Assembly: GCA_015522685.1 (NCBI GenBank)
Contig: WALU01000035.1
Location: 58,035 to 122,034, forward strand
DNA: 64,000 nucleotides
Direction of reading: 5' to 3'
DNA from: Thermoproteota archaeon
Lineage (GTDB): Archaea > Korarchaeota > Korarchaeia > Korarchaeales > Korarchaeaceae
Shown here: piece by piece, positions 9,225 to 13,440 of the stretch
Numbering within the stretch: position 1 is the stretch's first letter
Layout: the number at the start of each line of letters is the position of its first letter
The notes under the pieces: generated by a model
Seen by the model: only the letters and a program-made list of their open reading frames with translations
Database searches by the model: none
What the model was told of the DNA's origin: nothing
Made by a program: the position numbers and the translations under genes

Positions 9225-10847
9225 TCAAGAGAAGGTAGGCCCTAGAAGCTCAGATACTCTCTTGAACGGCCTACCTGATGCCCTATAGAATTTCGTGAAG
9301 AACTCATAGAATGTTAGCCTAGTGGCTTGAATGAATGAAAGTAACCCTTCTAGTCCCATGACAGCTATATTTATGAATATGAAAGATCCTAGAGCTATAG
9401 GAGATAGGAGAAAGCTTATGTTACTCAGATTAAATATCTCTTGACCAGCTATTAGCTGAGCTGCGAGTACTCCAAATACCTCATGTATAACAGCAAATGC
9501 AGCAAGCCTTACATAGGAAAGAGAATTGCTGAGTAAAGCCAGTGTACCCTCCAAAGCTACCGCTATAAGTTCTGACATACCTTCTCCGATGCCATGCCCC
9601 TCCTTTACAGATTTGTATATGGGGGAGACCATTGTTATCAGGAGGAATATTCCCATTGAGAGGAACAGCGGATCTTTTGCGATGAGGTTTAGTTGAGCTC
9701 TATCCCAAGTTACTGCAAGTACAGCACCAAAGTACATTATGACTGTAAATAATCCTTTATACTCAAAGATTGCTGCAAACAAGTCTCCTTCGATGAACTT
9801 ATTTATTGTATTTACAATGAAGCCCACTTCCATTTCTAGAGCGCCAAAGAGGAGTGAAATTACTATAAGCTGTACTATATTATATAAGGGGCTTATTATA
9901 GGCTTTAACACTTCAATGAAGAAGAACATACCATATAAGTACCCAAAGAACATCGATGCAATTCCAGAATAGATTAACAATCCACCTAGATCCTTCATAC
10001 TTCCTCTAAATTTCTTATAGAGGTAAACTCCCAATAGAAGCGTTGATAGACCATGTCCCATGTCACCAAACATCATACCAAACATTAAGGGGAAGAATAT
10101 TGCTGTGAGAATTGTAGGATCTAGTTCGAATATCGATGGAATCCCGTACAGTTTATGTGTTAACAGAGTTACCGGTTTTATTACATTAGGCATTTTAGTC
10201 TTAGAAGGAGCTTTACTCCCCTCTCCAGCTTCTTCAAATTCTATAGCAGTATATTTCCCAAGGTTATCTCTCAAAGCTTTATCTAGATCTCCTCTCTTCT
10301 TTTGAGGGACCCATCCGGATATTACAGCTGCTTCCTTTCCTACGTAGGTCATAGTTTTAATTTTCTGAGCTAATGCCTTTGGTTTTAGCTTTAATGCCAA
10401 TAATATGAGGGCATGCATCTTCTCTTTTATGCTACTAAGAGATCTTTCCAGCTCATCTTTTAATCTCAGAAATTCTTCTTTCTTGCTCAAACCTTTTAAC
10501 TTCTCTATTTCTCTTTCAATGGAGAGATATCTCCCTATAAGATCATCTAGTTCTAATATCAGCTTTTTATAATTTTCATTTAGCGATATCCCTCCTGATT
10601 GCGATTTTACCAACATCTCTTCCATAGAGATTCCTGTTAGAGAACTTGCCCTCTCTAAGGCTCTTACAATATCTTTATATGCCTCTAGCTCAGGTGTCTC
10701 AATTCCCTCAGGAGGTTTAACGCCAGGTAGTCCTTCAGGTGGTTCTAGATGTATATCATCAAACTCTATTAGAGCTTTAGCCATGCTGTCTGTATATGGT
10801 TTAATCGTGTAAGCATAAAACCGGGCTACCTTCTCAGGTTTAAGCAT
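9225..10847 (-). CDS. atpI: A-type ATP synthase stator subunit I (a-type)
   Basis: About 540 residues. The N-terminal cytoplasmic half (1-230) is a helical coiled-coil arm that docks the E/H stalks. The C-terminal half has about seven to eight membrane helices, including LPLMFGMMFGDMGHG and the ion-pathway helix NSLSYVRLAAFAVIHEVFG with its essential Arg. Typical archaeal I subunits are around 650 residues, so the N-terminal arm looks shortened. ATG 10847 has AAGGTGA at 10854-10860; an upstream in-frame GTG overlaps that site. It is followed by atpK on the same strand. Confidence 0.93.
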   Translation of the reverse strand: MLKPEKVARFYAYTIKPYTDSMAKALIEFDDIHLEPPEGLPGVKPPEGIETPELEAYKDIVRALERASSLTGISMEEMLVKSQSGGISLNENYKKLILELDDLIGRYLSIEREIEKLKGLSKKEEFLRLKDELERSLSSIKEKMHALILLALKLKPKALAQKIKTMTYVGKEAAVISGWVPQKKRGDLDKALRDNLGKYTAIEFEEAGEGSKAPSKTKMPNVIKPVTLLTHKLYGIPSIFELDPTILTAIFFPLMFGMMFGDMGHGLSTLLLGVYLYKKFRGSMKDLGGLLIYSGIASMFFGYLYGMFFFIEVLKPIISPLYNIVQLIVISLLFGALEMEVGFIVNTINKFIEGDLFAAIFEYKGLFTVIMYFGAVLAVTWDRAQLNLIAKDPLFLSMGIFLLITMVSPIYKSVKEGHGIGEGMSELIAVALEGTLALLSNSLSYVRLAAFAVIHEVFGVLAAQLIAGQEIFNLSNISFLLSPIALGSFIFINIAVMGLEGLLSFIQATRLTFYEFFTKFYRASGRPFKRVSELLGPTFS

Positions 10848-10884
10848 ATAGGTCACCTTTTTGATGTTCGTTATATTTACCTCG

Positions 10885-10926: not shown

Positions 10927-12291
10927 ATGAGGCTTCTAATATCTATGGGTACTAGACCAGAGATTATAAAGATGGCTCCCGTTTATGAAGCTTTAAGCCG
11001 AATTAGGGATGCAGATCTGCTGCTAGTCCACACAGGCCAGCATTATAACCAGGAAATGAGCGATATATTCTTCTCCGAGCTTGGTATCAGAGAGCCAGAT
11101 ATTAACTTAGGTATTGGATCGGGAAGCCAAATAATACAGACGTCTAGTATCATAAAGGAGATTGGGAGTGTGATTGAGAATTATGAGCCAGAAGCAACTA
11201 TAGCAGTTGGAGATACTAACTCTGTCTTAGGAACAGCTATAGCTTCATCAAAGCTCGAAGTACCGTTCATCCACATTGAATCTGGTTTGAGAAGCTACGA
11301 TTTCACTATGCCAGAGGAAATTAATAGGAGGATCTCCGATCATTTAGCTTCCCTTAATTTCTCACCTACGGTCAGATCCTTTTCAAACCTAGCGGAGGAA
11401 GGATATCCTCCTAGAAGGATCGTGCTTAGCGGAAACACGATAGTCGATGTCGTTAGGAGAACGATGAGTTTGATCCAGAAGTCCTCCATCATTAAGGATC
11501 TAGGAATAGATGAAAGCGAGCCTATTATGACCGTGACAGTACACCGCAAGGAGAACACTGATTATGAGCATAGAATGCTAGGCATAGTGAAGGCTTTAGA
11601 GGAGCTAAATGAGCTAACTATAGTCTGGCCTATGCATCCTAGAACCCTAAGGAAGTTAAAAGAATTTAATATGCTAAGCAAATTGAAATCGATGGATCAC
11701 TTGCTTCTCACAGAACCTTTAGGATATATAGAGTTCCTAAAGTTACTTCTATCTTCTGATGTAATAGCTACTGATTCGGGAGGTGTCCAGGAAGAATCCG
11801 CTACATTAAAAAAACCCTGTGTTATACTCAGGGATAATACAGAGAGGCCTGAGCTAGTGGAGATGGGATTCGGTAAAATAACTGGTATCAACCCCTCAGC
11901 TATAGTATCGGCTGTGAGAGATTTCTTATACCGAGAAGGATTGAGAGAGAAGCTGGAGAGCTTACCTAACCCATTCGGTGATGGAAGAGCAGCAGTACTT
12001 ATTGTAGATATTCTAAGAAGGATCTGGGATCTAAGAAATTTGAAGCAGGAATCTCCACGATTCAAGGGTGGATCTCCTCACTATGTATCGATTAGAGTAT
12101 CAGGAAAGATAGCTGAAATGACAGTATCTAGGCTTAAGGAAGCGACTGGATATGATGTTATAACAATATATGATGCTACGGGAAGATCTATAGCCTTTGA
12201 CCCATCTACACCACTGGTGAAGGGAGAGATAATCAGGTTAAGGGGTGATCCATATAATTTCGACAAGTTAAGGAGATTAATTAAGGGGTGA
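10927..12291 (+). CDS. wecB: UDP-N-acetylglucosamine 2-epimerase with an extra C-terminal domain
   Basis: About 454 residues. The first 365 are a non-hydrolysing UDP-GlcNAc 2-epimerase: GTRPEIIK at 8-15, HTGQHYNQEM, HIESGLRS, TVHRKENT and DSGGVQEE are all present. It makes UDP-ManNAc for surface polysaccharide or glycan synthesis. The last 70 residues (from about HYVSIRVSGKIAEM) do not belong to that fold. Their pattern, with ITIYDATGRSIAF and a final GEIIRLRGDPYNFDKL, resembles the RCK_C/TrkA-C regulatory ligand domain. It heads an operon with two DUF131 membrane proteins and hexulose-phosphate synthase. Start taken as ATG 10927; an upstream in-frame TTG is less likely. Confidence 0.9.
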   Translation: MRLLISMGTRPEIIKMAPVYEALSRIRDADLLLVHTGQHYNQEMSDIFFSELGIREPDINLGIGSGSQIIQTSSIIKEIGSVIENYEPEATIAVGDTNSVLGTAIASSKLEVPFIHIESGLRSYDFTMPEEINRRISDHLASLNFSPTVRSFSNLAEEGYPPRRIVLSGNTIVDVVRRTMSLIQKSSIIKDLGIDESEPIMTVTVHRKENTDYEHRMLGIVKALEELNELTIVWPMHPRTLRKLKEFNMLSKLKSMDHLLLTEPLGYIEFLKLLLSSDVIATDSGGVQEESATLKKPCVILRDNTERPELVEMGFGKITGINPSAIVSAVRDFLYREGLREKLESLPNPFGDGRAAVLIVDILRRIWDLRNLKQESPRFKGGSPHYVSIRVSGKIAEMTVSRLKEATGYDVITIYDATGRSIAFDPSTPLVKGEIIRLRGDPYNFDKLRRLIKG

Positions 12292-12296
12292 TTTTC

Positions 12297-12536
12297 ATGA
12301 ATCCTCTGGAGATAATAGGAACTATCTCCATAGTTGCTGGCGTTTTACTCATCCTAATAGCCTTATTACTTCCCCATAAAAAATTCGGAGATTATAGCGT
12401 GGGAGGTGTGATATTAATAGGACCTATTCCTATAATATTTGGTAAAAATATAAAAACTTCCCTCCTAATAATTCTAATAATTGTCTCTCTTTTGATGATG
12501 ATATTGGTAATTGCGATGATGGGGGCATGGCCATGA
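12297..12536 (+). CDS. Small two-helix membrane protein, DUF131 (TIGR00304) type
   Basis: About 79 residues. Two hydrophobic helices (IIGTISIVAGVLLILIALLL and SLLIILIIVSLLMMILVIAM) flank a short loop with the family-like GGVILIGPIPIIFGKN segment. Archaeal DUF131 proteins are uncharacterised. The ATG at 12297 follows GGGGTGA (12285-12291), itself overlapping the epimerase stop. The stop overlaps the start of a second protein of the same type, so the pair probably arose by duplication and may form one membrane complex. Confidence 0.8.
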   Translation: MNPLEIIGTISIVAGVLLILIALLLPHKKFGDYSVGGVILIGPIPIIFGKNIKTSLLIILIIVSLLMMILVIAMMGAWP

Positions 12537-12823
12537 GCGAGCCCTATGACGAGAAGATCATTGTGAAGGCCTTCCTTCTGTTTCTAGGAGTCTCTCTTAT
12601 AATAATGGGCTTCTTCGCCCTTGCAATATCCCAAGCAGCCACTCAAGCTGCTCAGCCTAGCGAAGGAGGAAGCTTCATAGTTATAGTAGGACCGTTCATA
12701 TTAGCTATGGGAAAGAATGTATCTCCCATCATTACAATAGCACTAGTGATTATTTCAATAGCTTTTATTATCCTTTTAGTATATCTATCAAAGAAGTTCC
12801 TCGGTGGTGTTTCATGGGGCTAG
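12533..12823 (+). CDS. Second DUF131-type membrane protein
   Basis: About 96 residues with two membrane helices. Between them is a GGSFIVIVGPFILAMGKN segment that mirrors the GPIPIIFGKN element of the preceding gene. The hydrophilic N-terminus (MSEPYDEKI) distinguishes it. Start ATG 12533 overlaps the previous stop (ATGA) with a GGGGG site at 12521; ATG 12527 is the alternative. It overlaps the next gene by ten bases. Function is unknown. Confidence 0.78.
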   Translation: MSEPYDEKIIVKAFLLFLGVSLIIMGFFALAISQAATQAAQPSEGGSFIVIVGPFILAMGKNVSPIITIALVIISIAFIILLVYLSKKFLGGVSWG

Positions 12824-13440
12824 AGATATTCTTATCACTTGATCTAATTTCCCTAAACGAAGCTCTCAAGATAGCTAAACTAGCGGTAAAGGCTGGATTT
12901 AAGGAAATAGAAGCAGGAACTCCTCTGATAAAGTCAGAAGGGATGATCTCCGTCAAATCTCTAAGAAAGGAGCTTCCTGAAAGTAAGATCTTTGCGGATA
13001 TGAAGACTATGGATACAGGAGCATTAGAGGCAGACTTAGCATTCGAATCTGGAGCGGACATTATAAGCGTAATGGCTGCTGCTCCTGATGAGACGATAAA
13101 AGAAGCCATAAAAAAAGCTGATGAGGTTGGAAAAGAAGTTTTAGTAGACACTTTAGGGTTAAAAGAAATTACATCTAGGCTTAGGGAAATAGTAGGTATG
13201 GGAATCCATAGAATTTGCCTCCATAGGGGAGTAGACGAGGGGATATTTGAAGAATATGATCTACTAGATAGTCTAAAGGAAATGGACGTCAAATTAGGAG
13301 TTGCTGGTGGTATAAATGCATCTACGATTCCCAATGTGATTAGGAAAGCCGACTTCGTTATGGTGGGAAGGGCAATAACAAAATCCACCAATCCAGAGAA
13401 CGCTGCTAGGGGTATACTAAAGGCTGCCGGTCTGCTTTAA
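12814..13440 (+). CDS. hps: 3-hexulose-6-phosphate synthase
   Basis: A protein of 208 residues of the OMP decarboxylase superfamily. It has the HPS signatures LDLISLNEAL, EAGTPLIKSEGM and ADMKTMDTGALE (about 62-73), plus GVAGGIN and the phosphate-binding FVMVGRAIT. In archaea this enzyme usually runs in the pentose-forming direction, splitting hexulose 6-phosphate into ribulose 5-phosphate and formaldehyde. No fused or adjacent 6-phospho-3-hexuloisomerase is seen here. The ATG at 12814 has GGTGGTG upstream. It is the last gene of the operon. Confidence 0.9.
   Translation: MGLEIFLSLDLISLNEALKIAKLAVKAGFKEIEAGTPLIKSEGMISVKSLRKELPESKIFADMKTMDTGALEADLAFESGADIISVMAAAPDETIKEAIKKADEVGKEVLVDTLGLKEITSRLREIVGMGIHRICLHRGVDEGIFEEYDLLDSLKEMDVKLGVAGGINASTIPNVIRKADFVMVGRAITKSTNPENAARGILKAAGLL

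Follow-up and report, generated by a model that had tools for sequence, protein, structure and literature searches.

The window, the whole stretch of 64,000 nucleotides of korarchaeal DNA that was analyzed, contains four open reading frames (ORFs) on the plus strand between positions 10927 and 13440. The first (10927 to 12291) encodes a protein of 454 amino acids in which an epimerase core is followed by approximately 89 extra C-terminal residues. The core, of the non-hydrolyzing UDP-GlcNAc 2-epimerase type, occupies residues 1–365 (12021 being its last base); a linker (residues 366–382; 12022 to 12072) runs up to a G-[SA]-P-x-[YF] motif, and an RCK_C (TrkA_C) domain (residues 383–454; 12073 to 12288) completes the protein. 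The next two ORFs encode membrane proteins, the first a DUF131/TIGR00304 protein (12288 to 12536) and the second a diverged DUF131-like protein (12527 to 12823). The fourth ORF (12814 to 13440) encodes a hexulose-6-phosphate synthase-like (HPS-like) protein of the OMPdecase/HUMPS superfamily. Overlaps of 4–10 bases join all four ORFs, with the start of the first DUF131 gene overlapping the epimerase stop by 4 bases. The arrangement is operon-like, in line with the operon that a sequence-only reading of this DNA had proposed.

That reading had also named two DUF131 proteins and a hexulose-phosphate synthase as neighbors. The first membrane ORF, which has two hydrophobic segments by hydropathy, exceeded the cut-offs of both PF01998 (DUF131; 40.3 bits) and TIGR00304 (48.7 bits). 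The second, also picked out by hydropathy, had no DUF131 match and matched TIGR00304 only weakly (21.4 bits vs. a cut-off of 33); the tandem pair is nevertheless conserved among relatives, with this ORF in second place. The fourth ORF matched PF00215 (114 bits), and its closest model was TIGR03128; its score of 184.6 bits lies below the family cut-off of 200, and we therefore retain the description as HPS-like only.

On the minus strand, positions 9225 to 10856 contain an ORF for V-type ATPase subunit I with 543 amino acids vs. approximately 802 in close relatives. Approximately 258 residues of its N-terminal region are missing in frame, both ends align well, and the breakpoints have similar sequence; this is either a real deletion or an assembly collapse at a repeat.

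The epimerase core and its predicted substrate

The epimerase is complete without the tail, as the sequence-only reading had held: TIGR00236 matched residues 1–365 at 341.6 bits (cut-off 210), and a PF02350 match of 322 bits ended at residue 364. Positions of catalytic and activator-site residues were mapped from published work (PMC10622841). The window protein keeps the catalytic residues Lys15, Asp96, Glu118, Glu131, and His206, and its UDP-GlcNAc activator-site (allosteric) residues are intact. The other tailed sequences also keep the residues checked, except for a change of Arg239 to His in four members of the class and some variation at residue 41. The best PDB match was the Methanocaldococcus jannaschii enzyme (4NEQ/4NES, 300 bits). 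With this enzyme and WecB/MnaA the window protein shares the core fold, the catalytic and activator-site residues, and Arg307, whereas 4NEQ and all other solved members are without a C-terminal RCK_C domain.

Arginine at position 307 is typical of UDP-GlcNAc enzymes, and tryptophan is found there in the diacetamido-sugar (diacetamido-glucuronate) enzyme (PMC10622841). Residue 307 was Arg, and never Trp, in all tailed rows checked (groups K, F, M, and H); in the rest of the set, 12 rows have Trp there. A diacetamido-sugar substrate was considered because enzymes for such sugars gave the second-best PDB match; it was not retained, since position 307 has Arg in place of the diagnostic Trp. The markers used for UDP-GlcNAc specificity were Arg at 307, Leu or Met at 16, and His or Gln at 94; Arg307 and Met16 of the window protein fit, and residue 94 is Val, not His or Gln. 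We predict that the protein is an archaeal non-hydrolyzing UDP-GlcNAc 2-epimerase that makes UDP-ManNAc. Valine is present at position 94 in most of the class and in Heimdallarchaeota; in UDP-GlcNAc epimerases this residue is His or Gln and lies near the C6 hydroxyl, and Val94 may shift substrate preference.

The genome contains two nucleotide-sugar dehydrogenases, both encoded apart from the epimerase. Leaving aside the general family model, each is closest to the UDP-ManNAc dehydrogenase model, at a score below its cut-off. A UDP-ManNAc dehydrogenase-like enzyme encoded away from the epimerase is a candidate consumer of UDP-ManNAc.

The C-terminal tail is an RCK_C domain

Outside K+ channels, transporters, and a small number of regulators, few examples of RCK_C are known. 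The tail had been described from sequence alone as RCK_C-like, and this identity was examined by profile and structure methods. The TrkA_C model (PF02080) matched residues 387–452 of the window protein with 17.3 bits in the protein search and 20 bits in the genome search, both below the Pfam gathering cut-off of 27. Orthologous tails from the same genus and family exceeded that cut-off (G018, 32.0 bits; G008, 31.7; G001, 31.7; G015, 29.9), as did whole orthologous proteins (29.0 and 29.5 bits). When a profile of 19 tails from the class was aligned by hhalign with genuine TrkA_C domains of the same genomes, the score was 44.5 (E = 1e-8), and 30 column shuffles used as a control scored at most 14.1.

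Modeled on its own by AlphaFold, the tail (pLDDT 89) has the order strand, helix, strands, helix. Foldseek searches of the PDB with this model gave the RCK_C domains of GsuK, MthK, BusR, KhtT, and KtrA as top matches, with a probability of 1.00 and a query TM of 0.6–0.7 for MthK, GsuK, BusR, and KtrA. A sequence-only search of the PDB with the tail gave no significant match (KtrA, 4xtt, at E = 0.83); the relation was recovered only by profile and fold methods. The full-length model had a pTM of 0.62 and was weak between domains; pLDDT in the linker was below 50 (low at 369–384), and the G-[SA]-P-x-[YF] motif at the linker end is conserved across the tails of the class.

In the reverse direction, a profile of the tails was searched against 247 archaeal genomes. 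Besides epimerases it retrieved many ORFs of approximately 217–257 amino acids and one of 321. Among the non-epimerase ORFs read out were TrkA proteins and a two-helix K+ channel with TVGYGD, all in other archaea; Pfam confirmed one TrkA (TrkA_N plus TrkA_C) and one channel (Ion_trans_2 plus TrkA_N plus TrkA_C). The Pfam scores of the orthologues, the hhalign comparison, the AlphaFold and Foldseek results, and the reverse profile search firmly support the conclusion that the tail is a real RCK_C domain. In fold and sequence family it is the same as the RCK_C/TrkA_C domains of MthK, GsuK, TrkA, and KtrA; here, however, the domain is attached to a soluble sugar-nucleotide enzyme, without TrkA_N and without a transporter, and the epimerase tails have IYD..G where TrkA_C domains of the same genomes have IKRG or IRRG after the second strand.

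For seven close pairs, dN/dS was 0.03–0.15 in the tail and 0.03–0.07 in the core; the tail is coding and under purifying selection, and it evolves somewhat faster than the core. The idea that the tail is an ordinary epimerase C-terminus or a mis-called frame, to which the window protein's own low TrkA_C score might lend some color, is already refuted by this selection, by the independent hhalign and Foldseek evidence, by retention of the tail in frame in genomes of the class, and by the solved epimerases, 24 of 24 of which end before the tail.

In genome G000 (G000:C29; L001, L002), the only strong TrkA_C protein found has 404 amino acids and two TrkA_C domains, each preceded by a helical-looking stretch; its best matches in relatives are of the same kind.

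Distribution of the fusion among archaea

Within the class (Korarchaeum and relatives, families f1–f3), the tail was present wherever the gene was complete, except in G019, where it is shorter and degenerate. Epimerases of other classes of the phylum (G026–G028) had no tail, and untailed epimerase paralogues occur in G005 and G016. Epimerases of families f6, f63, f91, f103, f71, and f83 end in a version of 50–60 residues, for example FLQVDSSLAGKRIAELPFQVVRVIDAGRARFPYPELRLREGQMIEVV. In a methanobacterial-type set of 152 genomes (f34 with f7, f33, and f35), which we infer to be Methanobacteriales, epimerase frames of approximately 440 amino acids were found almost throughout; in the 30 that were read out, the tails are divergent and short. 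Heimdallarchaeota epimerases have another short homologous tail. Several lineages have a shortened tail in which the strands are kept and the last helix is lost.

Profile comparison with the class tails gave scores of 36.2 for the f6 group, 35.4 for Heimdallarchaeota, and 28–32 for the methanobacterial type, vs. at most 17.6 for shuffles. The f6 group tails also matched genuine TrkA_C directly (31.0 vs. at most 12.9 for shuffles). Direct hhalign of methanobacterial or Heimdallarchaeota tails with TrkA_C failed to give a match; these tails reach TrkA_C via the class tails and the f6/f63 tails. A Pfam scan left the C-terminal extension blank in the methanobacterial-type, Heimdallarchaeota, and f6/f63 epimerases scanned.

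No full RCK_C tail was present in M. jannaschii-like or Thermococcales-like epimerases, or in bacterial ones as judged from solved structures and one locus. The Thermococcales-like f10 epimerases end 17–22 residues past the core in a piece that resembles the linker (LKVRSSRFI), and from its sequence this stub looks as if an RCK_C domain had been cut off (L027, L029, L133, L136, L138–L140, L142, L143, L147, and L154).

In a tree made from the core only, the tailed group, the stub group, and one untailed row fell on one side of a branch with a support of 94; the Heimdallarchaeota and two long single rows fell outside that side. A constraint placing tailed and stub rows together was not rejected (p = 0.70), nor was the same constraint with the Heimdallarchaeota and the two long rows added (p = 0.24). 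Because these single-grouping constraints were not rejected, one gain in an archaeal epimerase clade, followed by shortening or loss, is allowed but not proved; a single origin with truncation in one lineage is compatible with the tree. As judged from these sequences, the fusion is not local but spread over several archaeal lineages. A literature search, which was incomplete, found nothing relevant on the fusion; the epimerase–RCK_C architecture appears to be unreported in the literature searched, and databases may already list it automatically.

Possible roles of the RCK_C domain

In epimerases of this type the active site is covered when the two Rossmann domains close, a movement that UDP-GlcNAc promotes from a neighboring site (PMC11464976; PMC10622841). 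The RCK_C domain of BusR dimerizes and can bind ligand in the groove between the pair (PMC8517857). Given that the epimerase is homodimeric and that RCK_C domains associate in pairs, we infer that the two tails would form an RCK_C dimer on the two-fold axis of the enzyme. A small ligand, in this phylum one other than c-di-AMP, would bind in the groove between the paired tails; a downstream sugar nucleotide such as UDP-ManNAcA is perhaps a candidate. Once bound, the ligand would bias the closure of the open Rossmann domains on which catalysis depends. The tail would in this way add a second input to that of the conserved activator site for UDP-GlcNAc in the core and would govern how much of the UDP-GlcNAc pool enters surface glycans.

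Human GNE, which is not known to have an RCK_C domain, offers an analogy, in that this UDP-GlcNAc 2-epimerase is under the control of a sugar nucleotide that is the end product of its pathway. GNE belongs to a different, hydrolyzing class of enzyme and is feedback-inhibited by CMP-Neu5Ac (PMC4793188).

Our best explanation, whose prospects we put at not quite even, is a UDP-ManNAc-making epimerase with a permanent RCK_C domain that would be dimeric and ligand-sensing, its ligand and regulatory effect being presumed. The broader proposal of an ancient archaeal epimerase clade with a built-in RCK_C sensor, which would bind a ligand other than c-di-AMP at the dimer groove and set UDP-GlcNAc flow into surface glycans, is offered more tentatively. 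The RCK_C domain probably serves to switch or assemble the enzyme, and the ligand-gated control of UDP-ManNAc production suggested in the sequence-only reading is plausible. It counts against this explanation that catalysis as such appears not to need the tail, because the tail evolves somewhat faster than the core, is shortened in several lineages, and is reduced to a stub in f10. The weak modeling between the domains of the full-length protein also counts against it.

The chief rival is a ligand-free structural role, in which the RCK_C domain serves dimerization or heat stability by locking the dimer or building a tetramer in thermophilic archaea. We consider this a serious possibility, though short of probable. 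RCK_C of BusR dimerizes without ligand (PMC8517857), shortened tails with the strands but not the last helix persist in other archaea, and bacterial, M. jannaschii-like, and Thermococcales-like epimerases manage without a tail. RCK_C domains elsewhere, however, usually carry a ligand site, and tailed forms also occur in methanobacterial-type f34/f35 and in Heimdallarchaeota. These families and Heimdallarchaeota include many non-thermophiles, which makes heat stability by itself an unconvincing reason for the tail.

Another reading, which we think improbable, is that the tail docks on the DUF131 pair and so tethers UDP-ManNAc production to the membrane. The pair lies directly after the epimerase in the window and in approximately 15 genomes of the class, the HPS-like gene follows in approximately 18, and epimerase–DUF131 adjacency extends to other genera and another family (G018, G020, and G024). 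The tail is kept, however, in relatives where the pair is elsewhere or was not found (G009–G012, G017, G022, G023, and G025); HPS is missing at the locus in G016 and G020, and both pair and HPS are missing there in G017 and G025. In addition, of 247 archaeal genomes, 130 have DUF131, and at least 46 of these 130 gave no epimerase match. The shared order of V-ATPase genes, an Lhr-type helicase, and the thermosome is largely plain synteny. Apart from local gene order, the fusion and the DUF131 pair are not inherited as a unit, and the membrane-linked control once proposed for this locus is not supported.

Wherever they are located, DUF131 genes almost always form a close or overlapping tandem pair (window positions 12288–12823; L236, L237, and L239–L242), often with one typical and one diverged member. 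Such pairing hints at a membrane complex of two parts. Relocated pairs had no neighbor in common, and the literature searched held nothing relevant on DUF131 function.

A usual ligand of RCK_C domains is c-di-AMP, and among the fold matches of the tail are RCK_C domains that bind it, those of BusR, KhtT, and KtrA. A search of 29 genomes of the phylum for diadenylate cyclase (PF02457) found none, whereas 11 of 14 control genomes, M. jannaschii and Haloferax among them, were positive in the same search. Given this contrast, c-di-AMP is unlikely here, and we give very little credence to the tail as a c-di-AMP sensor of the kind in KtrA, CpaA, KhtT, and BusR, a judgment that applies to this phylum and does not extend to methanogens. 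Like the epimerase, BusR, a GntR-type repressor, is a cytosolic protein other than a channel and carries RCK_C as its C-terminal module, but BusR binds c-di-AMP, the cyclase for which was not found in these 29 genomes.

The extension left blank by Pfam in the methanobacterial-type, Heimdallarchaeota, and f6/f63 epimerases scanned can now be given an RCK_C annotation. If the preferred reading of a ligand-sensing domain is true, RCK_C is a regulator of a metabolic enzyme, beyond transporters and transcription factors, and a broadly conserved fusion to an enzyme at which archaeal glycan synthesis begins would give this domain a role in metabolism. The fusion would also point to a new archaeal ligand in a lineage without a recognizable c-di-AMP synthase, and would open the control of cell-surface sugar supply in archaea to direct testing.
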